Assembly: GCA_949285785.1 (NCBI GenBank)
Contig: CASEAG010000010.1
Location: forward strand, 1 to 32,279
Direction: 5' to 3'
Length of the DNA: 32,279 nucleotides
Source of the DNA: an uncultured Spirochaetales bacterium
GTDB lineage: Bacteria > Spirochaetota > Spirochaetia > Sphaerochaetales > Sphaerochaetaceae
In this document: piece after piece, positions 4,828-32,279 of the stretch
How the letters are laid out: each line of letters starts with the position of its first letter
How positions within the stretch are numbered: the first letter of the stretch is position 1
Notes under the pieces: generated by a model
What the model saw: only the letters and a program-made list of their open reading frames with translations
The model's database searches: none
Told to the model about the DNA's origin: nothing
Made by a program: the position numbers and the translations under genes

Positions 4828-5515
4828 ACAGCAGAAGGTCGGCCACGTGCCTGATCACGCCGTGCCCACCTGGTGCCGGAACGACGTAGTCCACACAATC
4901 CCTGACCGCCTCGACGGCATCAGCCGGGCAGCATGAGAATCCGACCTCCTTCAGCAGTGGAAGGTCGATCAGGTCGTCACCGATGTACAGCACGTTCTCA
5001 AGCCCGATTCCCTCGGCAATACAGATGCGTCTCACGCACTCAAGCTTGTCGCGGCAGCCCGGTTCATAATAGTCGGACTTCAGCTTGGCAAAGCGCCTCC
5101 TGTTGAGCTCCACGTCCTCGCCAGTGATGACGCCGACCTTGTAGCCGGCGCCACGGAGGAGAGCGAAGGCCATGCCGTCCTTCGTATCGAAGCGCTTGAG
5201 CTCATCACCCTTCTCCGAGTAGTACATCCCGCCATCTGTCAGACAACCGTCGCAGTCCGTGAGAAACAGTCTGATGTTATCCAGCGCATCGAAACCATTC
5301 CGTCCGCCATTGGAGACGATGTCCCTGACACAGCTCTGGTCCGACAGCCCGCCAAGCACCAGATCCTGCACTTCGTCACGCTCCAGGAGGGCGACGATGC
5401 GCATCGCCTCATCGACGACGAAGACGATTCCGCGGCCATTGGCCTCCATCCGGGCGATGGCGGTGTGGAGACTGTCCTCGCCCGTGACGATGAACGCACC
5501 GATATCGTCGCTCAT
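4796..5515 (-). CDS. CBS-HAD fusion: KdsC-like sugar-acid phosphatase
   Basis: A 239-residue protein. Residues about 1-72 look like a single CBS-type module (AIARMEANGRGIVFVVDE, then a RDEVQDLVLGGLSDQ stretch). From about 80 onward it is a class-C0 HAD phosphatase of the KdsC / N-acylneuraminate-9-phosphatase type. The nucleophile motif is DCDGCLTDG (D87, D89), motif II VITGE (T131), a lysine near 157, and motif IV GDDLIDLPLL (179-188). KdsC proteins are normally about 170-190 residues without a CBS module, so the fusion is unusual. Its ATG overlaps the NeuB stop by one base (TGATG), implying translational coupling. The likely role is dephosphorylating the product of the adjacent NeuB-type synthase; the exact sugar is unknown. 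Confidence 0.85.
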   Translation of the reverse strand: MSDDIGAFIVTGEDSLHTAIARMEANGRGIVFVVDEAMRIVALLERDEVQDLVLGGLSDQSCVRDIVSNGGRNGFDALDNIRLFLTDCDGCLTDGGMYYSEKGDELKRFDTKDGMAFALLRGAGYKVGVITGEDVELNRRRFAKLKSDYYEPGCRDKLECVRRICIAEGIGLENVLYIGDDLIDLPLLKEVGFSCCPADAVEAVRDCVDYVVPAPGGHGVIRHVADLLLSRSPRTPNRR

Positions 5516-6387
5516 CAGTGCGCCCTGTACTTCAGCTTGTCACGCTGGACGCGCTCGATCGGGAGGACATCGTCCTTCTTGTAGGAGAGTGCGTCATGGA
5601 CATCGTTCAGGTCCCTGACGAGGCTCCTGATGCCATAAGGCTCCAGGGATGCGGCATGGTCGGTGCCCTTCCAGGTCCTGTCCAGGGTGTAGTGGCGCTC
5701 GATGATGTGAGCACCCAGCGTGTATGCGGCCACATCCACGGCGGTGCCGAGATGATGGCCTGAGAAGCCGATCGCCTTCACTCTCGAACCGTACTTTTCG
5801 CGAAGGCGGAGTATCTCCAGCAGACACACGTCCTCATACGGCACGGGATAGCCCGAAGTGCAGTCGAAGATGACGAGGTCAGAAGCTCTGCCACACTCCT
5901 CGAAGAGGGAGACGATACGCTCCTCCTCTTCATGCGTCGTCATGCCAAACGAGAGCTGTATCTCGCCTTTATAATTGGCGCAAAGCCACCTGAGCATCTC
6001 GTAGTGGGTGTTGCACGCCGAGGGGATCTTGATGAATTCAGGCTCGAGGGAGGCGATCTCCTTCGCGCTGGTCATGTCCCACACAGAAGTCGAGTAGACG
6101 ATTCCCGCCTCCTCGCACCACTTCTTCAACTGGGCATGCTGCTCGAGCGTGAACTCGAGAGCCTCCCTGTGCTCTCCATATGTCCTTCCATAGGAGTTCT
6201 CCGGATGGGGATGCGGAGCATCGTACTGCTCAGGGGTGAGCAGCTCCCTGGGGCACCTCTTCTGGAACTTGATCGCATCCGCCTTGCAGTAGATGGCGGC
6301 GGTCATGATCATCTCATGGGCGATCTGCATGTCCCCCTTGTGGTTGCAGCCGGCCTCGGCTATGACGAACGGCTTCTCGTAATCCAT
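5515..6387 (-). CDS. NeuB-family sugar-acid synthase lacking the SAF domain
   Basis: A 290-residue TIM-barrel protein of the N-acetylneuraminate synthase family, which condenses PEP with an aldose or aldose phosphate. Visible family blocks are FVIAEAGCNHKGD, DAIKFQKR, STSVWDMTSAKEI, FIKIPSACN, DCTSGYP, GFSGHHLG, GAHIIERHYTLDR and KGTDHAASLEP. Classical NeuB/LegI/PseI enzymes are about 340-350 residues with a C-terminal SAF (antifreeze-like) domain. Here the protein ends soon after the barrel, so the SAF domain is missing. It lies 13 bp after the cytidylyltransferase gene, with ribosome-binding site AGGTGGAGGGAGT, and is coupled to the CBS-HAD phosphatase. The synthase-plus-phosphatase pairing suggests a phosphorylated substrate, as in 9-phosphate sialic-acid routes. 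The product identity is inference. Confidence 0.85.
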   Translation of the reverse strand: MDYEKPFVIAEAGCNHKGDMQIAHEMIMTAAIYCKADAIKFQKRCPRELLTPEQYDAPHPHPENSYGRTYGEHREALEFTLEQHAQLKKWCEEAGIVYSTSVWDMTSAKEIASLEPEFIKIPSACNTHYEMLRWLCANYKGEIQLSFGMTTHEEEERIVSLFEECGRASDLVIFDCTSGYPVPYEDVCLLEILRLREKYGSRVKAIGFSGHHLGTAVDVAAYTLGAHIIERHYTLDRTWKGTDHAASLEPYGIRSLVRDLNDVHDALSYKKDDVLPIERVQRDKLKYRAH

Positions 6388-6400
6388 ACTCCCTCCACCT

Positions 6401-7117
6401 TCACTCGTCCACGATGCCCGAGTCGAACTTCAGCAGGGCTTTGCTGAGGTAGTAGTCCTTGGGCGTCGTGACCTTTATGTTGTCGCTTGAGCAGATGACC
6501 ATGTGCAGTCTGTATCCGTAATGGTCCATCATCGAACACGAGTCGATGAAGCTGGTCATCCCATCGGCCATGGCCTTCCTGTGGCAGGCGATGATGTCGT
6601 CGAGACGGAACGTCTGCGGAGCCTTTGCATGGAAGCATGAGGAGCGGTCCTCGATTTGTCTTATCTCATGCGAGCCGTCGACGAGGAGCACTGTCTCCGT
6701 GGCCGGCGCGCAGGAGATCGCATTGCCCTTCTCCCTTGCACAGGCGATGTTCCCGCTTATTAGGTCCTCGTCTATGACCGGACGCACCCCGTCATGAATC
6801 AGCACGACGTCATCCGGACCCTGCCGGTGCTTCTCGGCCTCCACGAGGCCGTTGTAGATGGACAGCTGCCCCGTCGCCCCTCCGGCCACCACAGAGACGA
6901 CCTTGGCAAGCGAATACTTCTCGACGAGACTCTTCATGAAGTCGATCCAGTCGGGATGGCATGCTATGTATATGGCATCGATCCCGGGATGCTCCTGGAA
7001 CTTCTCGATCGTGTATACGATGATCTCCTTGCCTTCCAGCGTCAGGAACTGCTTGGGGCGGCTCTGCACCCCCATCCGGGAACCGACGCCACCGGCGAAT
7101 ATGACGACATGGTTCAT
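6401..7117 (-). CDS. IspD/TarI-family cytidylyltransferase
   Basis: A 238-residue CTP-dependent nucleotidyltransferase. It begins MNHVVIFAGGVGSRMGVQSR followed by PKQFLTL, the IspD/TarI nucleotide-binding signature. Later blocks are GGATGQLSIYNGL, VLIHDGVRPVIDEDLI, PQTFRLDDI and NIKVTTPKDYYLSKALL. The HDGVRP and TPKDYYLS variants, and a location among surface-glycan genes, favour a TarI/Bcs1-like alditol-phosphate (for example ribitol-5-phosphate) role over housekeeping MEP-pathway IspD. The substrate is not decided by sequence alone. I chose the ATG at 7117 because AAGGA lies about 11 nt upstream and it matches the family N-terminus. An in-frame ATG at 7144 would add nine residues and sits 2 nt after the predicted +1. 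First gene of a three-gene operon. Confidence 0.85.
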   Translation of the reverse strand: MNHVVIFAGGVGSRMGVQSRPKQFLTLEGKEIIVYTIEKFQEHPGIDAIYIACHPDWIDFMKSLVEKYSLAKVVSVVAGGATGQLSIYNGLVEAEKHRQGPDDVVLIHDGVRPVIDEDLISGNIACAREKGNAISCAPATETVLLVDGSHEIRQIEDRSSCFHAKAPQTFRLDDIIACHRKAMADGMTSFIDSCSMMDHYGYRLHMVICSSDNIKVTTPKDYYLSKALLKFDSGIVDE

Positions 7118-7131
7118 GCTTCTCGTCTTCC

Positions 7132-7160
7132 TTGATTCGTCCATCTTTGCACAGTATAAA
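7132..7160 (+). promoter_or_regulatory. Promoter of the SDR epimerase gene
   Basis: TTGATT (7132-7137), 17-bp spacer, TATAAA (7155-7160), giving +1 near 7167. The -10 overlaps the -10 of the opposite-strand promoter (7153-7158), so polymerase binding in the two directions should be mutually exclusive. Confidence 0.6.
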
Positions 7161-7181
7161 ATAAAGGCGGTGGTGATGAAA
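7153..7181 (-). promoter_or_regulatory. Promoter of the cytidylyltransferase-neuB-HAD operon
   Basis: Minus-strand TATACT at 7158-7153 with a weak -35 TTTCAT at 7181-7176 (17-bp spacer). Predicted +1 is near 7146, two bases before the in-frame ATG at 7144 and about 29 nt before the Shine-Dalgarno-supported ATG at 7117. Confidence 0.5.
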
Positions 7182-7202
7182 GCCGCCTTCGGGAGGACGC
7201 TG

Positions 7203-8270
7203 ATGAGATGCATTCTTGAAGAGGACCTAAGGTGCCTCGAGAGTCAGGACTACATACCATTCGACTGTTTCAGGGGGAAGTCCTTCCTGATCACGGGAGC
7301 CACGGGGCTTCTGGGACATAACATAGTCGAAGCCCTGGTACACATCTCGCTACGCTTCTCTCTCGACATCAGGATCGTCTGTCCGGTGAGGAGCGTGGCG
7401 AAGGCCGCGCAGATCTTCTCGGACAAGGTGCTCTCGTACAGTGGAATCGTCTTCCAGGAAGCCGATATGGCATCGTACGAATGCAAAGAGGAGCACATCG
7501 ACTACATCCTGCACATAGCCAGCCCCACCGACAGCGGCTACTTCGTCACCCACCCGGTCGAGATGATAGACTTCACCTTCTCCACCACACGCAGACTGCT
7601 TGAAGCTGCACGCTCATGCTCCTCTGCCTTCGTCTACTTCTCATCCATGGAGGTCTACGGAACACCGGGCGATGACGGGAAGATAGCGGAAGACCATATC
7701 ACGAGCTGTCCCGACACGATGAGCGCACGCTCCAGCTACAGCGAGGGCAAGAGGATCGCGGAGACGATGTGCCGGTCTTGCTTCGAGGAATATGGTACAC
7801 CGGTGTTCATCCTCAGGCTCACCCAGACCTTCGGTCCCGGCGTCGGGAAGGACGACGGCAGAGTGTTCGCACAGTTCGCAAGGGCTGCACTCGAGGAAAA
7901 GGACATCGTCCTTAAGTCCAGAGGTGAGACGAAGAGATCATACCTCTACCCCATGGACATGGTGTCGGCGCTGTTGACAATCCTTGCAAAGGGAGAGGCG
8001 GGAAAGGCCTACAACGTCGCCAACGAGGACACATACTGCTCGATTCTGGACATGGCCCACATGGTCGCCCATGACATCGCCCACGACCGGATCGGCGTGG
8101 TCTTCGACCTCGACGACGAAGGAGCCTCGAAGTACCTTCCGACGCTGCACATGAACCTGGACACATCCCGGCTCAAAGCCTTGGGCTGGAAGCCTGGCCA
8201 TGGCCTCAAGGACATGTTCACGAGGATGATCGACAGCTGGGAAGAAGACTCCTCGTCACCTATCAGGTAA
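7203..8270 (+). CDS. NAD-dependent sugar epimerase/dehydratase (extended SDR)
   Basis: A 355-residue extended short-chain dehydrogenase. The Rossmann glycine motif TGATGLLGHNIVEAL is at about 31-45. HIASPTDSGY and YFSSMEVYGTP follow, with the catalytic pair YSEGK near 179-183, then FILRLTQTFGPGVGKDDGR and a substrate-binding half including YPMDMVSAL. This is the nucleotide-sugar 4-epimerase / 4,6-dehydratase / UDP-glucuronate decarboxylase superfamily; the particular reaction cannot be read from sequence. GGGAGGA at 7191-7197 fixes the ATG at 7203, although the frame stays open further upstream. It is divergent from the cytidylyltransferase-NeuB-HAD operon with overlapping promoters, so it probably acts on the same glycan. 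Confidence 0.88.
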   Translation: MRCILEEDLRCLESQDYIPFDCFRGKSFLITGATGLLGHNIVEALVHISLRFSLDIRIVCPVRSVAKAAQIFSDKVLSYSGIVFQEADMASYECKEEHIDYILHIASPTDSGYFVTHPVEMIDFTFSTTRRLLEAARSCSSAFVYFSSMEVYGTPGDDGKIAEDHITSCPDTMSARSSYSEGKRIAETMCRSCFEEYGTPVFILRLTQTFGPGVGKDDGRVFAQFARAALEEKDIVLKSRGETKRSYLYPMDMVSALLTILAKGEAGKAYNVANEDTYCSILDMAHMVAHDIAHDRIGVVFDLDDEGASKYLPTLHMNLDTSRLKALGWKPGHGLKDMFTRMIDSWEEDSSSPIR

Positions 8271-8628: not shown

Positions 8629-9021
8629 TCAACTTTTCCCAGGATTGTCTTTTGTCAGATACTTTCTGAACAGGTTGGTTGTCATTTTCGATTTCAGGGC
8701 ACCGTCTATGACCCTTTGCAAAACGGAATCCTCAAGACGCTCTTTGATTGTGATCTGCCCGTTTTCGACCATTCTGGTCAGATGATGCACATCAAAAAGC
8801 TGCATCTTGTCGTACACGACATAGGACGGATGCCTGATGAAGCTGCAATCTCCTGCATTCAACACGCAACTGGCATCATAACCCTTGCCGCTCCTGATGG
8901 AGCTCACAAAGACGCATAAGCACACATTCTTGTCGATGATCTTCTCGATGATGATATGCAAATGCTTTCTATCGCCGGGATATGGATATAGAAAAGTGTC
9001 TCCGGGTTCTATTGTCGTCAT
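8629..9021 (-). CDS. Partner of the Panacea protein, candidate toxin
   Basis: A 130-residue protein I do not recognise. The N-terminus EPGDTFLYPYPGDRKHLHII resembles the opening strands of PemK/MazF-like SH3-barrel toxins or other small barrels; this is only a motif-level likeness. The rest (SFIRHPSYVVYDKMQLFD and a basic, helical C-terminus ending around LFRKYLTKDNPGKS) gives no family. Its ATG overlaps the stop of the upstream Panacea gene by four bases (ATGA), so the two are translationally coupled. Stoichiometric coupling to a Panacea-domain antitoxin is the main reason to suspect a toxin. AT-richer codon use than neighbouring genes suggests transfer. Confidence 0.7.
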   Translation of the reverse strand: MTTIEPGDTFLYPYPGDRKHLHIIIEKIIDKNVCLCVFVSSIRSGKGYDASCVLNAGDCSFIRHPSYVVYDKMQLFDVHHLTRMVENGQITIKERLEDSVLQRVIDGALKSKMTTNLFRKYLTKDNPGKS

Positions 9022-9599
9022 GACCGAAGCGCCTGCATGTTCATGTAGTTGTTCTTCTGGATACTGGCCGCGAGGCCCATTTCCTCAATGCATTCATCCC
9101 TATCCTTGTCGGACTTCACGACCTTGACTATATCCTCGATCGTTATGGGGATTGATGAACCCGCAGGATTCTGCCACTCAGCCAGATTCTCGTGACAGTA
9201 TTTGACGACATCCCATGCACTGGCTGATTCGAACCTGTTGCTGATCTCGGCTATGACCTCCATCTCCATAGGGCTGAGCCGGTCATATTCCCCAGGCTCC
9301 TTCATCAGAAACACATCGTATCCGTTCGTCCTGATGCAGGATGCCCAGTAGGAGCCGTTGTCGGTCTTGCTGTCCTTTATCAGATCGTAGATCCTGCTTG
9401 TCACAGGACCGTTGTCCATGGAGACATAGCAATCGGTTGTTATCGAATTGCTCCAGTCGGTTATGTACTGTCTGTCAGCAAGATACAGAAGCTTGATCAT
9501 CTTCAAGTAGTTCATACGCCCTGCATTCAGGCTGAGTAGATAGCAGGCAGCCTGAGTCGCTTTCATTTCATCAAATACGAAAGATATCGAGTACTGCAT
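9018..9599 (-). CDS. Panacea-domain (DUF4065 / SocA-like) protein, probable antitoxin
   Basis: A 193-residue protein with the features of the Panacea/DUF4065 domain (SocA/GepA family). These are an N-terminal helix leading to LKMIKLLYLADRQYITDWSN, the YVSMDNGPVTSRIYDLI block, LSPMEMEVI with a helix after it, and the C-terminal AWDVVKYCHENLAEWQNP segment. Panacea domains are known as promiscuous antitoxins paired with many unrelated toxins, and also as the SocA adaptor and as phage GepA. This gene is first in a two-gene operon with its own near-consensus promoter. AGGA lies about 9 nt before the ATG. The downstream partner overlaps it by 4 bp. Family call confident; antitoxin role inferred from context. 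Confidence 0.85.
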   Translation of the reverse strand: MQYSISFVFDEMKATQAACYLLSLNAGRMNYLKMIKLLYLADRQYITDWSNSITTDCYVSMDNGPVTSRIYDLIKDSKTDNGSYWASCIRTNGYDVFLMKEPGEYDRLSPMEMEVIAEISNRFESASAWDVVKYCHENLAEWQNPAGSSIPITIEDIVKVVKSDKDRDECIEEMGLAASIQKNNYMNMQALRS

Positions 9600-15712: not shown

Positions 15713-17551
15713 TCAGAACGCCCACTTCACTCCGAAGAGCATCATGGGCTGGAATTCAGTCGTGCCGACAGAGCGCTGATAGTTGAAATACAGGTTTCCA
15801 CCAAGAGCCGTATAGAACGTCACCTGACCCCATACATACTGGGGAAGGCTGTACTTGCCATATGCGCTCAGCTTTACCAGATGTTCCGCCCTGTCCCATC
15901 CACCTGATGGGGTGTCGACACCCATGAAGCTGTCGGAATCCGATTCGATATGGGCGTTTGACATGTCGATCTCGGTCAGCTGATGATCACCTGCATAATG
16001 GCTGATGCCCTTTGCCCCCTTGACGCGATAAAGCAGATTCCAGCCGACCGTATAACGGTCATCATATGACGTGAAGTCGCCGCCGGTGGACAGGACGAAC
16101 GAGTCGGGGCCATAGATATACCCCGAGTAGCCATAGTCGTCCAGATACTGCATGTGATAGCCGACCACGTAATCCAGATTGTAGTCGATCCAAGAGACGG
16201 TCAGGCCCGCTTTATCAACAGTGCTGTCCGTCTTGCCGTTCAGATAGAGATACGGGCTTGTATATACCGTCTCTAACCAGACGTTCAACACGCTGTCATC
16301 ACCAAGGGCGGTCGAGTATTTCAGATTGGCAAGAGCTCCATATGCCGGAGGGACGGAATCGGCACCCTCGAAGAACATCTGGAACTGATCGATGGCGACC
16401 TGGGCGGAGAACGACAGTCCGTCTACAATCACGAACTCGGTCTCGAGACTGATGAGATTGTTCGCCTCGTCGAAGTATGTCTTCTCGATGTCGTTCGTGT
16501 AGTTATAGTAGTTGTGACCTATGACGAATGGATAGAAGAACCTCATGTCGAGGCCATATGTGGAGTTGTAGATCGTCGCAAGATTCACGGCGAAGCGGAA
16601 CCTGTCGAAGAGATTGAGGTCGAAGCGGTGCACGACACGGAACTGCTGGAGGCCGTCGAACTCGCTCCTGGAGAACGTCGTCCTGTCGCCACCGGAACTT
16701 CCATCGGTGGCAGGGACGACGGTTCCGTCCGCCTGCCTGACATAATACATCTGCTGGTCGAAGCGGGTGACGGAGATGTTGTAGGTGAACCAGTTGCTCA
16801 GGAAGGACAGGTTTGCGATCTCCTGGTAGACGAAGTTGTCGCCGACTGCGAGATTGCCCGTGATTCCACCGCCCATGCCATGAGGATAGCGTCCGAGGAT
16901 GAAGCTGATGTAGTCGTTTCCAAAGCTTCCTCCCGCCCTGAACGGCATTTCAGGTGCGAAGGTCGAATAGAAGCCCTGTCTGTCGGTCCTCTGGTGAGAA
17001 TACAGCCAGCCGAGGCTGCTCTCATACATCATCTGCGGGTTGTTGCGTATCTCGTACTCGACCTCAAGCGCGACATTGTCGAAGAAGTCCACCTTTGCAC
17101 CCAGAAGAAGGAAGGGATCTTCATAGCGGTATGGAACGAGACTCTCGTTCCTCCTGTCAGGAGCAAATCCCGTGCGGTCGTTGGCATAGTCGAAATCATC
17201 ATAGTCGGCCAGGAATCCTTCCAGGTTGACCATTGTCTCCAGATCGAAGGCGAATCCGTCATCCTCGAAGAGATAGCTCTCGCCCGTAAGCTGTCCATAC
17301 AGCCTTCCGTATTCAATCCTGTCGCCCTCTCCAAGCGATGACGGATCTATCCTCTCCAGTGCGATGACAAGCACCCTTCCGGTGACCGGTGAGAACGTGC
17401 TCGGACCGATGACCCCTGCCCTGCGGCACAGCTCATCTACTCTCTGATAGATTTCGTCACGCACCGTGTATGTCGTCTGCATGTTGACGCCGAAGAGCGT
17501 CATGGATGCAACGGCAAGCAGAATCAGGACAAACGTCAGGCATCTTCTCAT
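15713..17551 (-). CDS. Large outer-membrane beta-barrel protein, Wzi-like (tentative)
   Basis: A 612-residue protein with signal peptide MRRCLTFVLILLAVASMTLF. The short N-terminal helical segment (VDELCRRAGVIGPSTFSPVT) resembles the 'residues-LA-x-G-x-P-x-T-x-P' opening of capsule-assembly Wzi proteins. Many amphipathic strands follow, ending in GVKWAF. Shared blocks with the 23436 protein (YGALANL, VYTSPYLYLN, GPDSFVLSTGG, YAGDHQ) show they are paralogues. It is the last gene of the fkp operon, after a 98-bp gap with its own ribosome-binding site (GGGGGAG) and a possible promoter. If Wzi-like, it would bind or export the surface polysaccharide made by this cluster. The Wzi assignment is from pattern only. 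Confidence 0.75.
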   Translation of the reverse strand: MRRCLTFVLILLAVASMTLFGVNMQTTYTVRDEIYQRVDELCRRAGVIGPSTFSPVTGRVLVIALERIDPSSLGEGDRIEYGRLYGQLTGESYLFEDDGFAFDLETMVNLEGFLADYDDFDYANDRTGFAPDRRNESLVPYRYEDPFLLLGAKVDFFDNVALEVEYEIRNNPQMMYESSLGWLYSHQRTDRQGFYSTFAPEMPFRAGGSFGNDYISFILGRYPHGMGGGITGNLAVGDNFVYQEIANLSFLSNWFTYNISVTRFDQQMYYVRQADGTVVPATDGSSGGDRTTFSRSEFDGLQQFRVVHRFDLNLFDRFRFAVNLATIYNSTYGLDMRFFYPFVIGHNYYNYTNDIEKTYFDEANNLISLETEFVIVDGLSFSAQVAIDQFQMFFEGADSVPPAYGALANLKYSTALGDDSVLNVWLETVYTSPYLYLNGKTDSTVDKAGLTVSWIDYNLDYVVGYHMQYLDDYGYSGYIYGPDSFVLSTGGDFTSYDDRYTVGWNLLYRVKGAKGISHYAGDHQLTEIDMSNAHIESDSDSFMGVDTPSGGWDRAEHLVKLSAYGKYSLPQYVWGQVTFYTALGGNLYFNYQRSVGTTEFQPMMLFGVKWAF

Positions 17552-17649: not shown

Positions 17650-18513
17650 TCATACGGGTTGCCAGCCTGTGGCGATCCGCACCCAGCTGGACGGATAGTC
17701 GTAGTCGACGGTCTCATGGGTATAGTACCGGTCCGGTACAAGTAGCATCCTGTCATCCTTCCCCAGCAGACCGCCCCACCAGCTGAAGGTGGAATTGGCG
17801 ATGATTCCACCGACGGTGCATCCCGCCATCAGGAGCATGTCACCAATCGGATTCTGCGAGGGGTATTCCACAAACGTCGCATCTTTCACAAGCTCTCCCA
17901 TGTGCTCAAGACACCAGGGGATATCATCGGAGAAGATGAACCATGAAATGTCATTCCTCCTCTCCAGAACATGATTGACAGCGTTGCGGTAATAGTCGGT
18001 GGAGGACAGGTCCAGGTATTTCCCGTGTCCGACATAATCGCCGCGACGCACATGGATGAAGCATGAATTGCAATCGACGATTCTCCTGTAGATGTCAAGG
18101 TCATGGACACCGGCCAGCACCGATGCCTTGAACGATGCATTGAACTCGTCACGGACCTGCTCATAGTATCGGCATGACACCCAGTAGCCATCGTAATACC
18201 CGGCAGGGCGAGACATGTCGCTGCAGGTCTCGTCGAAATAGACACCACGTTTCAGCAGGAACCGATACAGGGGCCGAATGCCCCTTGCACACAGGTGAGG
18301 TAGCGTATAAAGGTCACGCCTGTCCATCTGGTCCTCACCTATGTCGAAGAGATTGTCGAGCTCGAAGCCCGTGTGCTTGCTATAGCGCTTGTAGTATGAG
18401 GCGTTCATCACAAAGCGCACATCAGGAAAGCGCTTGCGCAGATACAGATAGAAACAGTATTCGAACAGCTGGTTGCCAAGCCCACCGCTGATCAGGACGA
18501 CGGATCCATGCAT
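17650..18513 (-). CDS. GT11 family, alpha-1,2-fucosyltransferase-like
   Basis: A 287-residue GT11 enzyme of usual length (about 290). The motifs are GGLGNQLFEYCFYLYLRKRF (9-28, the start of the donor-binding fold), the HxRRxD box HVRRGDY (154-160) that binds the GDP-sugar pyrophosphate, FSDD (194-197), and NSTFSWWGGLL (240-250). Characterised GT11 members transfer L-fucose from GDP-fucose to O-2 of galactose. GGAGGTG lies 7 nt before the ATG. It sits in one operon with fkp, which makes GDP-fucose from L-fucose, and with a kpsF-type isomerase and a HAD phosphatase. The donor may therefore be GDP-L-fucose or the close analogue GDP-D-arabinopyranose (see findings). Confidence 0.9.
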   Translation of the reverse strand: MHGSVVLISGGLGNQLFEYCFYLYLRKRFPDVRFVMNASYYKRYSKHTGFELDNLFDIGEDQMDRRDLYTLPHLCARGIRPLYRFLLKRGVYFDETCSDMSRPAGYYDGYWVSCRYYEQVRDEFNASFKASVLAGVHDLDIYRRIVDCNSCFIHVRRGDYVGHGKYLDLSSTDYYRNAVNHVLERRNDISWFIFSDDIPWCLEHMGELVKDATFVEYPSQNPIGDMLLMAGCTVGGIIANSTFSWWGGLLGKDDRMLLVPDRYYTHETVDYDYPSSWVRIATGWQPV

Positions 18514-18548
18514 GCCACACCTCCTTCCAAAGACAATTCCTCCTCCAT

Positions 18549-19358
18549 TCAGACGAGAACGAAATTGTCGATTGCATAAGCCACACCATCCTCGTCGTTC
18601 GACCTGGTCACGAGATCGGCGCGGCTCCTTACCTGGTCATATGCATTGCCCATGGCTATCGAGAGCCCCGCATACGACATCATCGGCAGATCGTTCAGCC
18701 CGTCCCCTATCGCGACGAGAGACGACCTGTCACAACCCAGCCTCTCCAGCAGGATTGACAGGGCGTTGGCCTTCTCCACGCCCTTCGGGACCACCTCCAT
18801 GAAATACGGCTCGGACAGATAGACGTCGAGTTCATCTTCAAAGGCGGCGGAGATCGGAGCAAGCGCTCGGGAGACAGGATCCGGCTCCCCCACGATCATG
18901 AACTTGACGGCATCCCACTGGACGGCACGCTCGAGACACTCGACACGCCTGAGAGGAATGGAGTTGTTGTACCCCTCCTTGATGACATACGGGTCGTCTA
19001 TGTTCTCCGCCATGACCCCGGATCCATCATAGGTCAGGGCAGTCAGCCCATACTCCCGGGCAAGGGCAGAGATCGTGCCGTAATGGCGACGGTCGATGAC
19101 CTTGCGCATCACAGGGCTCCAGCTACGGCATGAGAGGATCTCTCCTCCGTTGTAGGCGATGATGTACCCGCCCATATTCCCAAGCCCCAGATCCTCGGCA
19201 AGAGGCCTTATGCCCAAGACGGGGCGACCTGAGGCAAGCACGATCGTCATGCCTTCGTCAGCGGCCCTCGAGAGGGCACGTCTCGTGACTTCAGTCACCT
19301 TCTTCTCGCTGTTGGTCAGCGTCCCGTCAAGATCCAGTGCCAGAACCCTGTAGCGCAT
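18549..19358 (-). CDS. Cof-type HAD sugar-phosphate phosphatase
   Basis: A 269-residue class-IIB (Cof/YidA) HAD hydrolase. The nucleophile motif is LALDLDGTLTNSEKKVT near the N-terminus, motif II VLASGR, and a cap domain with the typical AYNGGEI. The C-terminal signature is VPKGVEKANALSILLERLG and motif IV AIGDGLNDLPMMSYAGLSIA. These enzymes remove phosphate from sugar or nucleotide phosphates, with broad specificity. AGGAGG lies before two adjacent ATGs (19361, 19358); I chose 19358 because the spacing is better. It lies 16 bp after kpsF and 35 bp before the GT11 gene, in the fkp operon. Substrate unknown; arabinose-5-phosphate is a context-based guess. Confidence 0.87.
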   Translation of the reverse strand: MRYRVLALDLDGTLTNSEKKVTEVTRRALSRAADEGMTIVLASGRPVLGIRPLAEDLGLGNMGGYIIAYNGGEILSCRSWSPVMRKVIDRRHYGTISALAREYGLTALTYDGSGVMAENIDDPYVIKEGYNNSIPLRRVECLERAVQWDAVKFMIVGEPDPVSRALAPISAAFEDELDVYLSEPYFMEVVPKGVEKANALSILLERLGCDRSSLVAIGDGLNDLPMMSYAGLSIAMGNAYDQVRSRADLVTRSNDEDGVAYAIDNFVLV

Positions 19359-19374
19359 CATGCCTCCTCCATCA

Positions 19375-20337
19375 CTACAGGTAGATCCCATAACCGGTTA
19401 TCCTGTCGCGGGAGATTATGCCGATCACCGAGTCGTCCTTGACGACGGCGATCGAATCGATGTCCGCCTTCAGCATCACGCGAAGCGCATCGAGCGCCAT
19501 CGAGTCGCTGTCGACGTAATAAGGATAATCCTGGACAAGGGAGGCGATGTCTTCACTGGAGATGTCCACACCATCGGAAAGAGCCTTGGCGACATCCTCC
19601 GACCTGATGATCGCACAGAAACGGTCATCGTCATCATAGACGGGGAGTATGCCGCTGTTGGAGCCGACGAATCCGACCACGGCCTCACGGATCGTGGATG
19701 AGGCATGAAGATGTGCATTGGTCTTCAATGGCTGCATGAGGTCCACGCTCCGTGTCATGAGCTTCTTCCCAAGGGAGCCCGCCGGATGGAACATGGCGAA
19801 GTCGCGCTTGTCGAACCTCTTCATCTCGGCCGCGGCGACGGCAAGCGCATCCCCGTAGACCAGGACGGATGTGGTGCTCGATGTCGGGGCCAGGCCCATG
19901 TAGCAGGCTTCATGAATCCCCTCCAGGACCTGGACGATGGGACACGACCTGGCAAGAGTCGAATCGGGATTGCATGTTATGCATGCGATCGTGGCCCCGA
20001 TTGCACGGATGTTCGGAATGATCCTGATCATCTCGTCACTCTCTCCGCTGTAGCTGATCATGATGACGAAATCCTGCTTCTGGATCATGCCAAGGTCCCC
20101 ATGCATGCACTCCGCCGGACTGATGCTTATGGCGCACGATCCAAGACTGGACATCGTCGCGGCGATCTTGCCGGCGATGTGTCCGCTCTTGCCCATGCCT
20201 ATCAGAATGGTCTTGCCCTTGCAGGAGACGATCGACTCGAGGATGTCCAGAAAAGGACGCCCAAGGGAGGCCCTGGTGGCCTTCAGAGACTCGATCTCTA
20301 TATCGAACACGTTCTCAGCTCTTTCAATTGCAGTCAT
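19375..20337 (-). CDS. kdsD: KpsF/KdsD-type arabinose-5-phosphate isomerase
   Basis: A 320-residue protein: an SIS domain (about 35-170) followed by two CBS modules (about 200-320), the usual layout of D-arabinose-5-phosphate isomerase. Diagnostic blocks are GMGKSGHIAGKIAATMSSLG, SPAECMHGDLGMI, ISYSGESDE, EACYMGLAPTSST, VYGDALAVAAAE and DFAMFHPAGSLGKKL. It interconverts ribulose-5-phosphate and arabinose-5-phosphate in the cytoplasm. Normally this feeds Kdo synthesis, but no KdsA or KdsB is seen here. Instead it lies 12 bp after fkp (ribosome-binding site GGAAGGTG) and just before a phosphatase and a GT11 gene. This context points to a different use of arabinose-5-phosphate. Confidence 0.92.
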   Translation of the reverse strand: MTAIERAENVFDIEIESLKATRASLGRPFLDILESIVSCKGKTILIGMGKSGHIAGKIAATMSSLGSCAISISPAECMHGDLGMIQKQDFVIMISYSGESDEMIRIIPNIRAIGATIACITCNPDSTLARSCPIVQVLEGIHEACYMGLAPTSSTTSVLVYGDALAVAAAEMKRFDKRDFAMFHPAGSLGKKLMTRSVDLMQPLKTNAHLHASSTIREAVVGFVGSNSGILPVYDDDDRFCAIIRSEDVAKALSDGVDISSEDIASLVQDYPYYVDSDSMALDALRVMLKADIDSIAVVKDDSVIGIISRDRITGYGIYL

Positions 20338-20349
20338 TCATCACCTTCC

Positions 20350-23340
20350 TCAGATGAATTGCGAGTCCCATACGGCGACGCCGGTGTCCTCGAGCTCCTG
20401 TCCGATGCGCTCCTCGAGTTCAGCCCTCGAGAGGCCCTGCTTCAGAATCATCATCAGGAAACCTCCACCTCCGGCACCGCATATGCTCTTGCCATCGATC
20501 AGGTCATCACATACATCGAAGATGTAGTCAAGACATGGGTTCGAGGCCCCCTCGTCGAGACGGCGGACAAGCGAGAACTGCCGGCTCAGCAGATGTGCGA
20601 ATCCCGTGACATCCCCGCTCTCCAGTCGGTAGCGCATCAGTGCACATATGTCCTTGATATCGGCTATAGCGTCAAGCGACTCACGGTCGTTGCGGATGCA
20701 CTGGTTCATCTCCCCGCGCAGCACGCCTCTGGCGAGTCTCTGCTGCCCCGAGAACACGAGAACGAACCGGGACTGCAGCTCCTGCAGAGTATCCTCGGGG
20801 ATGTCCATGTACCTGACATCGATCTTCTGTCTGAGGCCGGGGCGTGAGGTGAAGAACTTGAAACCCGGAGTCAGCCCTCCTACCTGGTCCTGCCATCCTC
20901 CACCAGTGCCCATCAGCTGCTCGACTATGAACACCAGCGTATAGATATCGTCTTCATCGTATTCATGTCCGAAGATGTCGAAGATGGCCTGTAGGCAGGC
21001 TGCAGCGACGATGCTGCTGGTTCCAAGCCCGGAGCCCTTCGGCACATCCACCGATGTGGACAGTTCGAGACCTCCGCCTATGTCGTGCAGTATCTTATCA
21101 AGCGTCCAGTCGCCATCCATTGGCACCAGCCCGCTTGCGACCAGCACCGCCTTATGAAGGGCGAAGGTGTCATGCGGATCGCCACATGCCCTGATCTGGC
21201 CGATGTCACGGACGTCGAGACTGGCATGCAGATCTGAAGAGCTGAGCCTTATGACAGGCTCCTCGATTCTCGTCACACGTGCCTGAATCGGCATCCTGCC
21301 CTTGAGCAGTATGGTTCCATCCAGCATCGCGCCACCATGCTCGATGCAGTAAGGGGCGGCATCAGAGGGGCTTCCGCAGAAGTTGATTCTGACAGGAAGG
21401 TTCCTGACGACCTCGTCGGTGACCATGGGACAGGAATACAGGGCCGGGATGGCATCGCCACTGCTTGCGAGTATCGCATCCTTCAGAACTTCGTATGCCC
21501 TGTCCTCGAAGAGCTGGGAAGATGAGGAGTCCAGCTCGGACAAGGCCAGATTCACCCTCATGTTCACAGGGAATGGCAGTTCTGATGTCCTTGATGAGAG
21601 ATACTCCAGCGACAGTCCGTCTCCTGAAACCATGTCCAGGGATTCTGCCATCGGACGGTCATCGGACAAGAGCTGGATGAGGCGTTCACATGCCGTGGTT
21701 CTTCTGAGGCCATCCTCCCAGTCGAGCAGATCGTGGACGGAACTCGAGTTGAAGCTAGAGTCAAGACTGTACCTTTCGCTCTCGAGCCAGCCGGCCACCT
21801 CATTCTTATCAGCCTGCCCGCATGCTATGCGATACAGGAGCAGAGCCTTGCCGACAGCCTCGACTTCATCATCGCACGCCTGGTATATCCGGGCATTCCA
21901 TATGGATGCAGGTCTCTGGTCCCATATCATGGCGCGGTCAATCGAATAGCGCCTGGTCATCTCCTCGAGAGAGGAGCCGAGGAACTGGCCGTTCGCCGAC
22001 TCCTTTGGGTTGTCGGCTATGCCGTATATCCTGCAAACGAACCTTCCGTTCTGGAGTTTGAGCGTATGCAGGACGACACCATCGGGAATGGTCTGGCCCT
22101 GGACATGCACATGCGACAGGATCGTCCGCCTTCCGATCGATGTACCCTTTCCCTCCACTATGCTGCTCTCTATGAAGCTTTCATAGGGAACGGACACCGA
22201 CCTGTCGACATAGGAGCAGATGATGCTTCCCTGCGCATCATCGTCATCCCTGTTGGAGAGAAGCTGTCTTCTCCACCCGGGCAGGGAGTCGTCATCGACA
22301 CTCGTCATGAGATCGTATGTCTCCCTCGTGCTGCCGAAGTGTATGTATCTTGCTGGAGCGAAGCTCACCATCTGGAGGCTGAGTGACGACAGGCTGTTCC
22401 AGATTGCCTCGCGACAGGCCTCCAGAGCCTTGGAGAACGAAGTCTCGGGGAGCTCTCCAAGGTATTCCTCCCTTGTGGAGTCTCCTGCAAGAGGATAGAC
22501 GAAATCGGTGTAGAAGTTAAGGCAGACCTGTGGGTTCACAAACTTCTCGAAGAGGGCCTCGTCCACCATGCCATCTGATGAAATCAGAGAAAAGAGCCTC
22601 TCGACCACTCTGGTGGATAGCCAGATCGCTCCCGTGTCTATGTCGACGAGGTTGTTCCCGTTCACGGCCCCGTTGGCACGTAGCACGCTCTCAGGCTGCT
22701 TGTGAAGGAAGCGGCTCACTACACCCCCACCCGAGACGAAGACGCCATGATCCACGCCTTCTGCAACAGGAGCCTTCATCGAGAGAGCCACGGCATCCGC
22801 CTGCGAGACGTTGAGCTGCAGCGGGTTGAAGACCAGAGCGGTGTCACCGGGAAGCACCATGATGCCTCTTGGAACCCGGGCAGGAAGCCCGGAGAACGCC
22901 GTCAGCAATTCGTCGAAGATCGATGAAACGGTATCAGGGCATAGCATCCTTGGAACCGGCGCGAAGAGCTTGCCGCATGTCGAATACTGGGGTATGCGCT
23001 TGCTGTCTCCACCCGAGTGGATCAGCAGCATCCTCATGGAAAGCACCTTCTCAAGCCCTTCGGCCTCTACCAGTGCCCTGAGGACGTTCAGCGTCGAGCC
23101 GCCCGAACCGATGCGCCTGCCATCGATGTCAGGGATGACCAGATACCGTGAACGGGCACATAACCTTCCTGCAGCCAGCCGATGCTCTATCTGTGCACGA
23201 TATATCTCCGCCTGTCTCTCGTTGGATGCGGTTATCACGACGCAGTCCCACACGGGGTACGACGAATCGTTCACATACGATTCGTAGTTGAGGATGTTGT
23301 TTTCATAGCTCTGATGAACAAACCGCTTCTTCCTATCCAT
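20350..23340 (-). CDS. fkp: Bifunctional fucokinase / GDP-fucose pyrophosphorylase (Fkp type)
   Basis: A 996-residue protein; Bacteroides Fkp is about 950. The N-terminal nucleotidyltransferase has GSGGSTLNVL (about 78-87) and LLIHSGGDSKRIPQYSTCGK (about 105-124), followed by LFAPVP. The C-terminal GHMP kinase has PVRINFCGSPSDAAPY, the ATP loop VPKGSGLGTSSIVAAA (about 765-780) and CGAGGGGF (about 950). Fkp phosphorylates L-fucose at C1 and then makes GDP-fucose; the homologous enzymes also accept D-arabinose. I chose the ATG at 23340 (AAAGG 8 nt upstream) over a GTG at 23370 with no ribosome-binding site. First gene of the operon fkp-kdsD-HAD-GT11-Wzi-like. Confidence 0.93.
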   Translation of the reverse strand: MDRKKRFVHQSYENNILNYESYVNDSSYPVWDCVVITASNERQAEIYRAQIEHRLAAGRLCARSRYLVIPDIDGRRIGSGGSTLNVLRALVEAEGLEKVLSMRMLLIHSGGDSKRIPQYSTCGKLFAPVPRMLCPDTVSSIFDELLTAFSGLPARVPRGIMVLPGDTALVFNPLQLNVSQADAVALSMKAPVAEGVDHGVFVSGGGVVSRFLHKQPESVLRANGAVNGNNLVDIDTGAIWLSTRVVERLFSLISSDGMVDEALFEKFVNPQVCLNFYTDFVYPLAGDSTREEYLGELPETSFSKALEACREAIWNSLSSLSLQMVSFAPARYIHFGSTRETYDLMTSVDDDSLPGWRRQLLSNRDDDDAQGSIICSYVDRSVSVPYESFIESSIVEGKGTSIGRRTILSHVHVQGQTIPDGVVLHTLKLQNGRFVCRIYGIADNPKESANGQFLGSSLEEMTRRYSIDRAMIWDQRPASIWNARIYQACDDEVEAVGKALLLYRIACGQADKNEVAGWLESERYSLDSSFNSSSVHDLLDWEDGLRRTTACERLIQLLSDDRPMAESLDMVSGDGLSLEYLSSRTSELPFPVNMRVNLALSELDSSSSQLFEDRAYEVLKDAILASSGDAIPALYSCPMVTDEVVRNLPVRINFCGSPSDAAPYCIEHGGAMLDGTILLKGRMPIQARVTRIEEPVIRLSSSDLHASLDVRDIGQIRACGDPHDTFALHKAVLVASGLVPMDGDWTLDKILHDIGGGLELSTSVDVPKGSGLGTSSIVAAACLQAIFDIFGHEYDEDDIYTLVFIVEQLMGTGGGWQDQVGGLTPGFKFFTSRPGLRQKIDVRYMDIPEDTLQELQSRFVLVFSGQQRLARGVLRGEMNQCIRNDRESLDAIADIKDICALMRYRLESGDVTGFAHLLSRQFSLVRRLDEGASNPCLDYIFDVCDDLIDGKSICGAGGGGFLMMILKQGLSRAELEERIGQELEDTGVAVWDSQFI

Positions 23341-23368: not shown

Positions 23369-23397
23369 ACTATAAATCATTCGGGCGGCAATATGAA
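23369..23397 (-). promoter_or_regulatory. Promoter of the fkp operon with flanking inverted repeat
   Basis: Minus-strand TATAGT (23374-23369) with TTCATA at 23397-23392 (17-bp spacer), +1 near 23362. The -35 lies in the 15-nt loop of a perfect 7-bp inverted repeat GGGCGGC (23383-23389) / GCCGCCC (23405-23411). The repeat could be an operator, or a terminator of the upstream barrel-protein operon without a good T-run. Confidence 0.5.
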
Positions 23398-23435: not shown

Positions 23436-25106
23436 TCACTTGAAGAAAGCCATCGGATCGATGGTGAAGCCGACAGTCCACTGCAGATTCTGCCAACTGT
23501 CGCCTTCGATGTTGTCGTAGTTCAGCTTCACCTGGTATGTGAGACCTGTGGAGATGCTGAACGCCCTGTGCGGGGAGTAGGCGACACCGATGTTGGCAAG
23601 GAACGTATGCTCGATCACCCCGGTGAGGGCGAAGTCATAGACATGGTCCTTGCCAGCGATGGACTGCGGAGTCTGGTTCTGACCTGCGGAATACCTGATG
23701 CCCCTGTCACCATGCAGGCGGTACATCAGCTCGTACGTGAGGTCGAACGAGCCGTCGTAGGCAAGCCAGTTGCCACCATAGGAGAAGACGATAGAGTCAG
23801 GGCCGTACTGATAGCCGGTATAGGAGAGGTCGCTGCCATAGGAGAGGTAATAGCCCAGGATCATGTCCATGTTCTCGTTGTCCTCATCAAGATCGTTGAG
23901 ATACAGGTACGGACTCGTGTAGACGATCTCCATATGGTTCTCCCAGAACGAGTTCTCGAGGGCCTCGACCCTGCTGAGGTTGGCAAGTGCACCGAATGCG
24001 TTGGGGAACATGTTGGATCCATCCTTCATCTCGTTTGACAGCTGGATCTGGTCTATGACGAGCTGGAGGTTCATCCTGAAACCGCCACCGAGGGCCGCGG
24101 TTATGTCGAGTGCGGCATAGTTGTTCGCCCAGTAGCCCGACTCCTTCTCGAATCCCTGCCAGTTGTGCAGGAAGATGAACGGGTTGAACATTCTAAGATC
24201 GAGTGCGCTCTCCGTCTGGAGGATGGCCCCCTCCCTCAGAGTGAGCGTGACCTTGTCGAAGATGTCGAAGGCATATGAGTGCGTGATCCTGGACTGGTGA
24301 GGACCATCCATCCTCATCCACTGCTGCAGGGAGTTCACCCCGCCATTGTCCGCAATCGGGTTCTCCTGGTCGAAGTGGGTGTATGTGAAGTCGTAGCTGA
24401 AGAAGTCGTCGTAGAACGAGAGCTTCGCGAAGTCCTGGAACTGGAAGTTGTCGGCGACGAAGAGGTTCCCGGTGAAGCCCTTGCCCATGTTCAGCTGCCC
24501 ACGGCCGAGGAAGAAGTTCATGAAGGAGTTGCCGAGTGACACTCCTGCGTCGAACGGCATCACCCGCTGGTACGGTTCACTGCCAGACATGTAGGCGTTC
24601 TGGGCGAAGAAGTCATTGAACATGCCTTCCGAGAGCCTCAGCTTGAACGGGAGGGCAATCTGGCCATACACATACTCGGACCAGCCGAACTCGAACGAGA
24701 GCGTGGCGAGCGCCGCCCTCTCGTCATAGCCCTGGTACCAGTCGCTGCGCTTGGCATCATCACCGACCTTGAGATAGATTTCCGGGCTTATTGGCAGACC
24801 GAAGTCGAAGAACATCGTCTTCGAACGGTACAGCATATCGGGAGCACCGACCTTGCCAAGGACGTCATCATAGAGCTCCTTCACACCTGCAGGAAGCGAC
24901 TCCCTGTCGATACGTTGCAGATTGTATGAGAGGGCACTCCCCGTGACGGGAGTCGTGTCGTGGGGGCCGGTAACGCCCGCGACCTGAGCGATGTAGTCGA
25001 TTACCCGATACTCCCAGTCATCGTAGTCATAGGTCCTCTGGTCTGCGAAGATGTCAGAACACAGACAAAGTGCGACAAGCACAACAGCAACAGTCTTCTT
25101 CAACAT
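23436..25106 (-). CDS. Large outer-membrane beta-barrel protein, paralogue of the 15713 Wzi-like protein
   Basis: A 556-residue protein with signal peptide MLKKTVAVVLVALCLCSDIF and cleavage near ADQ. The N-terminal segment IAQVAGVTGPHDTTPVTG again resembles the Wzi opening. Long strand-rich region follows. Blocks in common with the 15713 protein are FNPFIFLHNW, FGALANL, EIVYTSPYLYLND, YQYGPDSIVFSYGG, LMYRLHGDRGI and SAGQNQ. It ends MAFFK, so the usual terminal aromatic is penultimate. It starts 10 bp after the 25117 gene, with only a weak ribosome-binding site, suggesting coupling. Last of five secreted genes in one operon and just upstream of the fkp operon. Possible role in surface polysaccharide display; inference. 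Confidence 0.75.
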   Translation of the reverse strand: MLKKTVAVVLVALCLCSDIFADQRTYDYDDWEYRVIDYIAQVAGVTGPHDTTPVTGSALSYNLQRIDRESLPAGVKELYDDVLGKVGAPDMLYRSKTMFFDFGLPISPEIYLKVGDDAKRSDWYQGYDERAALATLSFEFGWSEYVYGQIALPFKLRLSEGMFNDFFAQNAYMSGSEPYQRVMPFDAGVSLGNSFMNFFLGRGQLNMGKGFTGNLFVADNFQFQDFAKLSFYDDFFSYDFTYTHFDQENPIADNGGVNSLQQWMRMDGPHQSRITHSYAFDIFDKVTLTLREGAILQTESALDLRMFNPFIFLHNWQGFEKESGYWANNYAALDITAALGGGFRMNLQLVIDQIQLSNEMKDGSNMFPNAFGALANLSRVEALENSFWENHMEIVYTSPYLYLNDLDEDNENMDMILGYYLSYGSDLSYTGYQYGPDSIVFSYGGNWLAYDGSFDLTYELMYRLHGDRGIRYSAGQNQTPQSIAGKDHVYDFALTGVIEHTFLANIGVAYSPHRAFSISTGLTYQVKLNYDNIEGDSWQNLQWTVGFTIDPMAFFK

Positions 25107-30247: not shown

Positions 30248-31414
30248 GTGTTCAGCGGAAAGAAGGCCATGTTTACCAGCTGCGGACTTGCGATGGATAC
30301 GGCGTACATCGACGGGACGAAAATGGAGGCGGAGGCGAACAGGTACAGATTCGTATGGAAGCTTACAAGATGGCACGAGAACCTCGACGGGAAGACAAGG
30401 AGCCTGCTTGTCCAGATGGGGTTTGGAGACGATCTGCCGGCTGAAGGACTGCTACCATCATTGCTTGTTGCAAGGGAGACAGAGAAGAAAGCCGCTGGAC
30501 TCGCTGGCGAAGGAAAAGAAAGGGCAGGCATGCTCGACAGTCTCACTGGTTACCTGCTGAAGATCCTGGAATATGAGGAGAAGGAAAAGAACTGTGGGCC
30601 ATACTGGAACTCCTATTACAAGACGGACCATGACGCCACGGCGATGTGCCTGAAGCAGGACTACTACAGCGGACTCGGCTCAAGCATGCATGCGGCATAC
30701 TCGGCACAGTTCATTACAAGCCATGGCTTCATTGTGACGTATCTTGTCTCGCAGGATCGCAGTGACATGTATGTGTTTGCAAGAACAGTAGATGCATTCC
30801 ATTCGATGTATGGCATGCACCCTAAGCGGATCTGTGTGGATTCAGGATATGGATGCACCGAGAACTGGAGATACTGCCATGACCACGGCATAAAGGGTTT
30901 CATCAAATACAATTCCTGGGCCGGGGAGAGGAGCGGGCGCAATCCCGCGATCTATGAGCTCGAGGAAGATGGTACGATAACATGCCTCGGAGGGAGGAAG
31001 GGATACATCACCCAGATCCCTAGCCGCCATCCCAAGAGGAAGGGTGCAGTATTCTACCGCGTGGACGGATGCAAGGGCTGTGCCTTCATGCCTTATTGCA
31101 GGAGGTTCATGAATGAGCGTACAGGATCCTTCAAGATCTTCGAGGTCTCCCCTGAGTACCAGAGGTACAAGCAGGAAGCGAGGGATATGCTCCTCTCCGT
31201 CGAAGGCATTGAGATGAGTGTCAACAGGAACATACAGGCTGAAGGCTCATTTGGAGGCCTGAAGCAGGACATGGCTTACACGAGGCTCAGGCGGACCTCC
31301 CTTGAGAAAGCCTCGCTTGAGATCATGCTGACATGCCTGGGGTTCAACATCCGGAAATACCTGAGATTCATAGTGAAGCAGACCGGATTCAAGGAATGGA
31401 AGGCCCCTGAATGA
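30248..31414 (+). pseudogene. IS1182-like transposase, N-terminally truncated
   Basis: An open frame of 388 codons from a GTG at 30248, with an in-frame TAG just upstream (30233-30235). It carries the IS1182-family block AYIDGTKMEAEANRYRFVWK. A later DDE-core region includes CVDSGYGCTENWRYC, the Cys-rich CKGCAFMPYC, and the C-terminal GSFGGLKQDMAYTRLRRTSL. The usual N-terminal domain (about 100-150 residues, with an N-terminal helical region before the IDGTK block) is absent, and no remnants are seen in 30100-30247. So it is probably a 5'-truncated, inactive copy. The C-terminus looks complete (ends WKAPE). Clean terminal inverted repeats are not seen. Confidence 0.8.
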
Positions 31415-31643
31415 ACGAAGCCTGAGGCTTTCAGGAAGCCTTCTGCGATGCGGCTTGCAAACAGAGCAGCAAAGGTCCTGTTGGGGACGGGACCAAAACG
31501 CCAACCGAGGACGACACGATAAACCAAATCTGAGCCGGAACCCATAGCCAAAAGGAGCCTTTAGAATAAAGAAGGTCATTTCACTGACCACCAGTAATCC
31601 ATAGACTTGAGAAACGATCAACCAACAAGCCGAAGGAGGAAAG

Positions 31644-32279
31644 ATGGTCAATGAGAATGACCTTGGAGAGATTCTAGCACAGGAGCTGGAAAGGATTAAG
31701 GAATGCGGGGAGCGGATCAACCTCGCAGAGATTGAAAGGCGTACTGGAATCAGCAGGGCGGTACTACGCCGATGGCAGAGCAACGGTTATGTCATCCAAC
31801 CCTCAAGGAAAGGATGGCGATCCGGAACGAGCAAGCTTGATGATGTCTCCGAGACAGTTGATGCCCTTCTTCGGAAGGGGGTGGCGAACTCGTCGGTGAT
31901 CCTCGAGCGGATACGGGAGCTCGGCTATGACGGAGGGATCTCGATTCTGAAGGACTACATCCGTCGCCATCGCGATCTGGTGCCGGCCCCCAGACACATC
32001 GTGGCGTCCACGGGGAACCGTGGGCGCAGATACACCACCGGGCGCGGGGACTGCTACCAGATGGACTGGGGCTTCGTCAACGTGGTCGATGTCGCCGGCA
32101 ATGGATGGAGGTGCGCATGTTTCGTCATGGTGTGTCACCACTGCGGATTCAGATATGTGGAGTTCTTCCCGAACGCCAGGCAGGAGAACCTGTTCATAGG
32201 GATGATACACGCCTTCTCGGTGATGGGGATCCCGAAGCGGGTTCTCACGGACAACATGAAGAGCGTCACGCTGGGCAGG
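31644..32279 (+). CDS. istA: IS21-family transposase IstA, 5' part
   Basis: 212 codons are visible before the window ends. It starts MVNENDLGEILAQELERIKE with a helix-turn-helix region (AEIERRTGISRAVLRRW). The DDE catalytic domain has its first Asp in QMDWGFVNVVD and the second in VLTDNMKSV, the IS21 order. AAGGAGGA (31633-31640) is 3-4 nt before the ATG. IstB should follow outside the window. The element's left end would lie in 31415-31643; I cannot place its terminal repeat. GGTCA-TTTCAC-TGACC near 31575-31590 is a small inverted repeat in that stretch. Confidence 0.9.
   Translation, partial: MVNENDLGEILAQELERIKECGERINLAEIERRTGISRAVLRRWQSNGYVIQPSRKGWRSGTSKLDDVSETVDALLRKGVANSSVILERIRELGYDGGISILKDYIRRHRDLVPAPRHIVASTGNRGRRYTTGRGDCYQMDWGFVNVVDVAGNGWRCACFVMVCHHCGFRYVEFFPNARQENLFIGMIHAFSVMGIPKRVLTDNMKSVTLGR

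Follow-up and report, generated by a model that had tools for sequence, protein, structure and literature searches.

A candidate operon for GDP-D-arabinopyranose synthesis with an altered Fkp in an uncultured Spirochaetales bacterium

Introduction

D-Arabinopyranose is L-fucose minus the methyl group. Synthesis of guanosine diphosphate (GDP)-D-arabinose is so far established in trypanosomatids, where Leishmania AFKP80 makes GDP-D-arabinose in vivo and a route to GDP-D-arabinopyranose has been proposed in Crithidia (PMC11301363, PMC5481574). For characterised FKPs, D-arabinose is a weak side substrate, with a Km of 1.3-2.5 mM versus 34-91 uM for fucose (PMC11982464 among other sources). Here, we analyse 32,279 nucleotides of DNA (the window; contig CASEAG010000010.1, positions 1 to 32,279, assembly GCA_949285785.1) from an uncultured Spirochaetales bacterium whose genome (2.05 Mb) is 96% complete. 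An earlier note on this DNA had started from the ability of Fkp-type enzymes to activate D-arabinose and had read an operon in the window as a pathway to GDP-D-arabinopyranose. Our results support that reading: the operon probably encodes the de novo synthesis and use of this nucleotide sugar.

Results

An operon of four enzyme genes

The minus strand carries four enzyme genes in head-to-tail arrangement, from 23340 down to 17650, in the order fkp, kpsF/kdsD, Cof-type HAD, and GT11:

20350 to 23340, minus strand: fkp, bifunctional GHMP sugar kinase and GDP-sugar pyrophosphorylase, Trp-less variant (PF07959, GHMP, PRK13412 match, 5yys_A alignment)
19375 to 20337, minus strand: kpsF/kdsD, predicted D-arabinose-5-phosphate isomerase, SIS plus two CBS domains (TIGR00393, aligned KdsD residues)
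18549 to 19358, minus strand: Cof-type HAD-IIB phosphatase, candidate D-arabinose-5-phosphate phosphatase (TIGR00099, HAD motifs)
17650 to 18513, minus strand: GT11 glycosyltransferase (alpha-1,2-fucosyltransferase family), candidate D-arabinosyltransferase (PF01531, HxRRGDY)

The places, strand, and gaps (12, 16, 35, and 98 bp) of these genes and of a fifth downstream, encoding a barrel protein, were confirmed, with internal ATG starts taken for fkp and HAD. The fkp open reading frame (ORF) is open from a GTG at 23370 and its likely start is the ATG at 23340; the HAD ORF is open from 19391, and its start was placed at the ATG at 19358. A purine-rich stretch resembling a ribosome-binding site precedes each of kpsF, HAD, and GT11. 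Promoter and terminator scans of the operon gave hits at chance level only, so that a promoter ahead of fkp at 23397-23369 is only suggestive. The cassette does not stand out as foreign by its base composition.

Each protein could be assigned to a family. Fkp combines an N-terminal pyrophosphorylase (PF07959, 280 bits) and a C-terminal GHMP kinase domain (PF00288) in one protein, the FKP architecture in the 5yys_A alignment, and lies below the NCBIfam equivalog cut-off (401 versus 721 bits). KpsF scores 230 bits against TIGR00393 (cut-off 203.7), has the SIS and two CBS domains, and lies below the stricter PRK10892 equivalog cut-off (242 versus 505 bits). All of its residues aligned to K59, H88, E111, E152, and H193 of E. 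coli KdsD, which we take to be the catalytic set, are kept; hence, it should make arabinose-5-phosphate. The HAD (TIGR00099, 176 bits, cut-off 137; closest solved relatives 3niw and 4dw8) retains the motifs DLDGT, SGR, K, and GDGLND that place it among Cof-type HAD-IIB proteins. The GT11 protein (PF01531, 77 bits, cut-off 23.9) carries the HxRRGDY motif of its family and is the only one in the window's genome; none was found in six congeners.

Taken in order, these activities would form a short pathway. KpsF would convert D-ribulose-5-phosphate to D-arabinose-5-phosphate, from which the HAD may remove the phosphate to give D-arabinose. The Fkp variant would then phosphorylate D-arabinose at C1 and couple the product to GTP, yielding GDP-D-arabinopyranose, and GT11 would transfer D-arabinopyranose from it to a surface glycan. 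We infer the actual substrates, the order of the steps, and the acceptor from family and context, and we assume that dephosphorylation comes ahead of the kinase step.

A KdsD-type isomerase in a genome lacking the Kdo pathway

Since KdsD-type isomerases can serve 3-deoxy-D-manno-octulosonate (Kdo) synthesis, the earlier note had named kdsA or kdsB in the same genome as a finding that would overturn its reading. Neither was found. Both PF00793 matches in the window's genome read as 3-deoxy-D-arabino-heptulosonate-7-phosphate (DAHP) synthases rather than KdsA (by their sequences, one fused to prephenate dehydratase and one of AroG type), and neither PF02348 (KdsB/NeuA-type cytidylyltransferase) nor PF04413 (WaaA) had a match there. 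The genome therefore lacks the set of KdsA, KdsB, and WaaA that would indicate a Kdo pathway, and none of the 16 genomes of the genus has LpxC. Given these absences, no Kdo role is visible for KpsF. The window's genome has no second full KpsF, and none of the other sampled genomes of its class has one over the cut-off, which KpsF exceeds in 91 of 393 genomes of the phylum. The proposed pathway would explain why a bacterium without Kdo has a KdsD.

Arabinose-5-phosphate might instead feed a Kdo-like acid through a NeuB-family synthase and a KdsC-like HAD, both of which the window encodes at 4796-6387. However, this HAD best matches KDN-9-phosphate phosphatase (KDN, 2-keto-3-deoxynononic acid), a NeuB 81% identical to the window's occurs in an Oscillospiraceae metagenome-assembled genome (MAG; L106) without a KpsF match, and no PF02348 enzyme was available in the window's genome. 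We rejected a feed into the NeuB cluster and consider a Kdo-like product very improbable.

The NeuB cluster as a whole (4796-8270) encodes the NeuB-family synthase, the KDN-9-phosphatase-like HAD, which is fused to CBS, and an enzyme of the IspD family that scores as a D-ribitol-5-phosphate cytidylyltransferase. Activation of the nonulosonate might fall to this IspD-type enzyme; alternatively, the genes might belong to separate pathways. In L106, neuB stands alongside a gene (5273-6442) whose product joins a cytidine monophosphate (CMP)-sugar synthetase to a KDN-9-phosphate phosphatase; gmd, fcl, and a Trp-type fkp lie close to this gene.

The fkp-kpsF-HAD trio recurs in a second phylum

Fkp is rare around the window. 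Of 393 genomes in the phylum, 7 have an Fkp over the family cut-off, and among seven sampled genomes of the genus the window's is the only one. The six Fkps found elsewhere in the phylum are remote from the window's (24-27% identity) and have neither a kpsF nor a HAD of this kind as a neighbour. We then scanned 84,980 genomes for Fkp relatives with a pattern that favours the window's Fkp clade and took the best 80 of 343, of which 79 had a readable gene. These best 80 all came from Clostridia or unclassified bacteria, with 39-46% identity across most of the protein length.

Exactly one of the 79 examined relatives has fkp, kpsF, and HAD in identical order: a Eubacterium sp. MAG of the Clostridia (L054, JAISVH010000029.1), where the trio genes overlap by 4 bp and are followed by a gene for a TagH-like polysaccharide-export ATPase. 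The window and L054 Fkps are 47% identical and form a sister pair (Shimodaira-Hasegawa-like approximate likelihood ratio test 100, by a quick method) on long branches; their KpsFs are 44% identical and also form a sister pair (100/99), again on long branches. Among 23 genomes of this Fkp clade, KpsF exceeded the cut-off in L054 only (0 of 22 others). Because the order recurs in L054 while KpsF is otherwise missing from the genomes of the Fkp clade and of the window's class, the arrangement is not a chance neighbourhood.

Other sources yielded no third trio. A single-protein search of viral contigs gave no match for the window Fkp; a truncated Fkp (L041, 47%), from a contig in a viral collection, made a sharper search possible. 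The altered loop motif described below, used as a DNA pattern, was found in no viral contig, a scan of 394 genomes from L054's order added no carrier of it, and the best plasmid matches hold no trio. KpsF-labelled matches in two further loci (L064 and L078) were set aside as RpiR-type regulators by length and sequence.

Fkp has lost the residues that face the fucose methyl

In Bacteroides fragilis FKP (BfFKP), Trp599 stacks on C4-C5-C6 of fucose, and the W599A change costs more than 3000-fold in kcat/Km; C3-OH is contacted by Asp601 and Thr602, Gln761 and Asp762 contact C4-OH and C2-OH, and Val137 and Phe270 face the methyl of fucose-1-phosphate in a model, not a crystal (PMC11982464). We carried these residue numbers over to the window Fkp through the 5yys_A alignment. 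The kinase-site Trp is present in 84 of 86 Fkps (it is also found in two Bacteroidales Fkps) and is replaced, by Pro, in the window and L054 proteins only. At the pyrophosphorylase positions 137 and 270, V and F are found in every one of the 78 clostridial relatives, whereas the window and L054 have T and Y; both also have Ala at T602 and P603. In the window Fkp, counted from the GTG at 23370, the substitutions are T177, Y342, P668, A671, and A672. The last three fall in the kinase substrate loop, which reads CGSPSDAAPYC against the usual GGGW[ST]DTPP[YH]C:

21346 to 21378, minus strand: altered kinase substrate loop CGSPSDAAPYC, ORF residues 665-675 of fkp

R592, D601, Q761, D762, H168, K187, H272, D136, R80, and K89 are unchanged in both trio Fkps. 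Contacts for C2-C4, phosphate, GTP, metal, and catalysis are thus all kept, with the exception of the C3-OH contact T602. An L-fucose FKP would have the stacking Trp and hydrophobic methyl-facing residues; with W599P, V137T, and F270Y, the window protein is a FKP homologue that we do not file as an L-fucose enzyme. The best reading of these residues is that the trio Fkps bind a sugar arranged like fucose at C2-C4 and unlike it at C5, and D-arabinose is the likely preference of the variant.

In three genomes of the window's class (L037, L038, and L040), Trp-type fkps lie near nucleotidyltransferase-like genes and, in L037 and L040, near phosphonopyruvate-decarboxylase-like genes as well (N-terminal reading), a different glycan setting.

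Weighing the candidate sugars

Fkp and GT11 are the standard pair for L-fucose, and animal guts, the presumed habitat, offer this sugar in free form. The operon could therefore serve ordinary GDP-L-fucose salvage, with KpsF and HAD as accidental neighbours that have other roles. However, L054 has the kpsF-HAD pair beside fkp as well, no other use is visible for KpsF, and exactly these two Fkps have lost the L-fucose contact Trp along with the two residues facing the methyl. In addition, gmd exceeded the cut-off in neither trio genome (it is present in two Trp-type comparison genomes), and no fucose isomerase was found in the window's genome, which argues against an L-fucose economy. We regard salvage as unlikely.

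The same substitutions could fit a sugar with the C2-C4 of fucose and a larger or polar C5 group, such as L-galactose or a longer sugar, with a shifted KpsF substrate: V to T and F to Y add hydroxyls able to bind a C6-OH, and W to P opens the pocket. This we consider quite unlikely, as KpsF is conserved at all five positions aligned with the KdsD catalytic set, and no common ketose phosphate is known to us from which a KpsF-type isomerase would make L-galactose-6-phosphate.

A further scheme follows the order of the GDP-heptose pathway, with its four activities in the manner of GmhA, HddA, GmhB, and HddC. Here, the kinase would turn D-arabinose-5-phosphate into the 1,5-bisphosphate, the HAD would remove the 5-phosphate, and the product would be GDP-D-arabinose, probably the furanose. 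Since the Trp loss exceeds what D-arabinose needs and the loop resembles that of heptose-7-phosphate kinases, this is a real rival. Yet arabinose-5-phosphate cannot form a pyranose while the pyranose C2-C4 contacts are kept, and the kinase is otherwise far nearer to FKP (171 versus 84 bits); on balance, we doubt it.

Several points weigh against synthesis of GDP-D-arabinopyranose. First, BfFKP handles D-arabinose although it has the Trp; loss of this residue is therefore not required for the sugar and could mean a bulkier C5 group. Second, the loop SDAAPY is nearer to heptose kinases 3k85 and 4usk (GGSDVSPY and GGTDVAPY) than to FKP (GGWTDTPPY). Third, all three methyl-facing sites are among the 25 of 201 near-invariant columns at which both trio Fkps deviate, a point in favour of the reading (hypergeometric p of 0.0017 if columns are independent), but the common descent of the two proteins weakens this figure; contacts at V137 and F270 also come from a model rather than a crystal. 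Fourth, the trio is known from two loci only. GT11 is absent from L054's short contig and from the rest of its genome, which has a fucose-isomerase-family protein. Finally, Cof HADs are promiscuous enzymes, and the nearest annotated relatives give no substrate role: those of Bacteroides adjoin cysS or menaquinone genes, not kpsF, and so the family offers no substrate hint. Neither an arabinose-5-phosphate phosphatase nor such an operon is named in the literature searched, which covered the field in part.

Genes around the cassette

The cassette lies between two genes for outer-membrane-barrel-like proteins:

15713 to 17551, minus strand: outer-membrane-barrel-like protein, paralogue of 23436-25106
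23436 to 25106, minus strand: outer-membrane-barrel-like paralogue of 15713-17551, on the opposite side of the cassette

The two are 31% identical over 538 aa, and neither has a Pfam match (15713-17551 has no NCBIfam match either). Because these flanking barrels are paralogues, the enzyme cassette appears to sit inside an array of outer-membrane protein genes. The barrel gene at 15713-17551, counted as an operon member in the earlier note, is a paralogue of the other barrel and probably not part of the pathway. Four more outer-membrane-like proteins are encoded up to 28796. Elsewhere, the window has a SocA/Panacea antitoxin-like gene (9018-9599) and, at its right end (30248-32279), transposase or integrase pieces.

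Discussion

The support for GDP-D-arabinopyranose comes from the lack of Kdo genes, the second trio in L054, and methyl-facing Fkp substitutions confined to these two proteins. Gene content and order, recurrence in a second phylum, the missing Kdo pathway, the intact motifs, and the methyl-facing losses are direct observations; D-arabinose-5-phosphate is a candidate substrate for the HAD and GDP-D-arabinose a putative donor for GT11. We also lean, if only slightly, towards a fuller account: a dedicated one-operon bacterial pathway without lipopolysaccharide (LPS), with an Fkp re-specialised from L-fucose and a HAD that would be the first identified D-arabinose-5-phosphate phosphatase, spread across phyla by horizontal transfer. 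As a candidate bacterial operon for GDP-D-arabinose it is well supported; the enzyme families are known, and their assembly as a pathway is new. With four proteins, bacterial D-arabinopyranose glycans become a directly testable question, and a FKP variant likely preferring D-arabinose would be useful in enzymatic synthesis.

How does this operon compare with known systems? The GDP-D-glycero-alpha-D-manno-heptose pathway (GmhA, HddA, GmhB, and HddC) likewise combines a SIS isomerase, an anomeric GHMP kinase, a HAD phosphatase, and a GDP pyrophosphorylase. The operon enzymes, in contrast, come from other subfamilies: no GmhA, HddA, or HddC member is in the operon, the isomerase matches KpsF rather than GmhA, and the kinase is of FKP type and fused to the pyrophosphorylase as in FKP. 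The window KpsF shares with E. coli KdsD/KpsF/GutQ the SIS and two CBS domains, the aligned catalytic set, and 37% identity, but it adjoins fkp and has no Kdo or LPS pathway around it. B. fragilis FKP, an enzyme of L-fucose salvage, has the same domain order, GHMP and pyrophosphorylase motifs, and catalytic and C2-C4 contacts; the window Fkp differs by W599P, V137T, F270Y, T602A, and P603A and by its kpsF and HAD neighbours. The trypanosomatid route would pass through the same intermediates, from ribulose-5-phosphate via arabinose-5-phosphate and D-arabinose to GDP-D-arabinopyranose made by an FKP-type bifunctional enzyme. The window system, unlike it, is bacterial, is encoded with fkp in one operon, and has a Fkp without the fucose-contact Trp. 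In the trypanosomatid route, GFAT is the proposed isomerase and the phosphatase has no gene, whereas the operon has a dedicated KpsF and HAD; if our reading is true, this HAD would supply the step missing from the proposed eukaryotic route.

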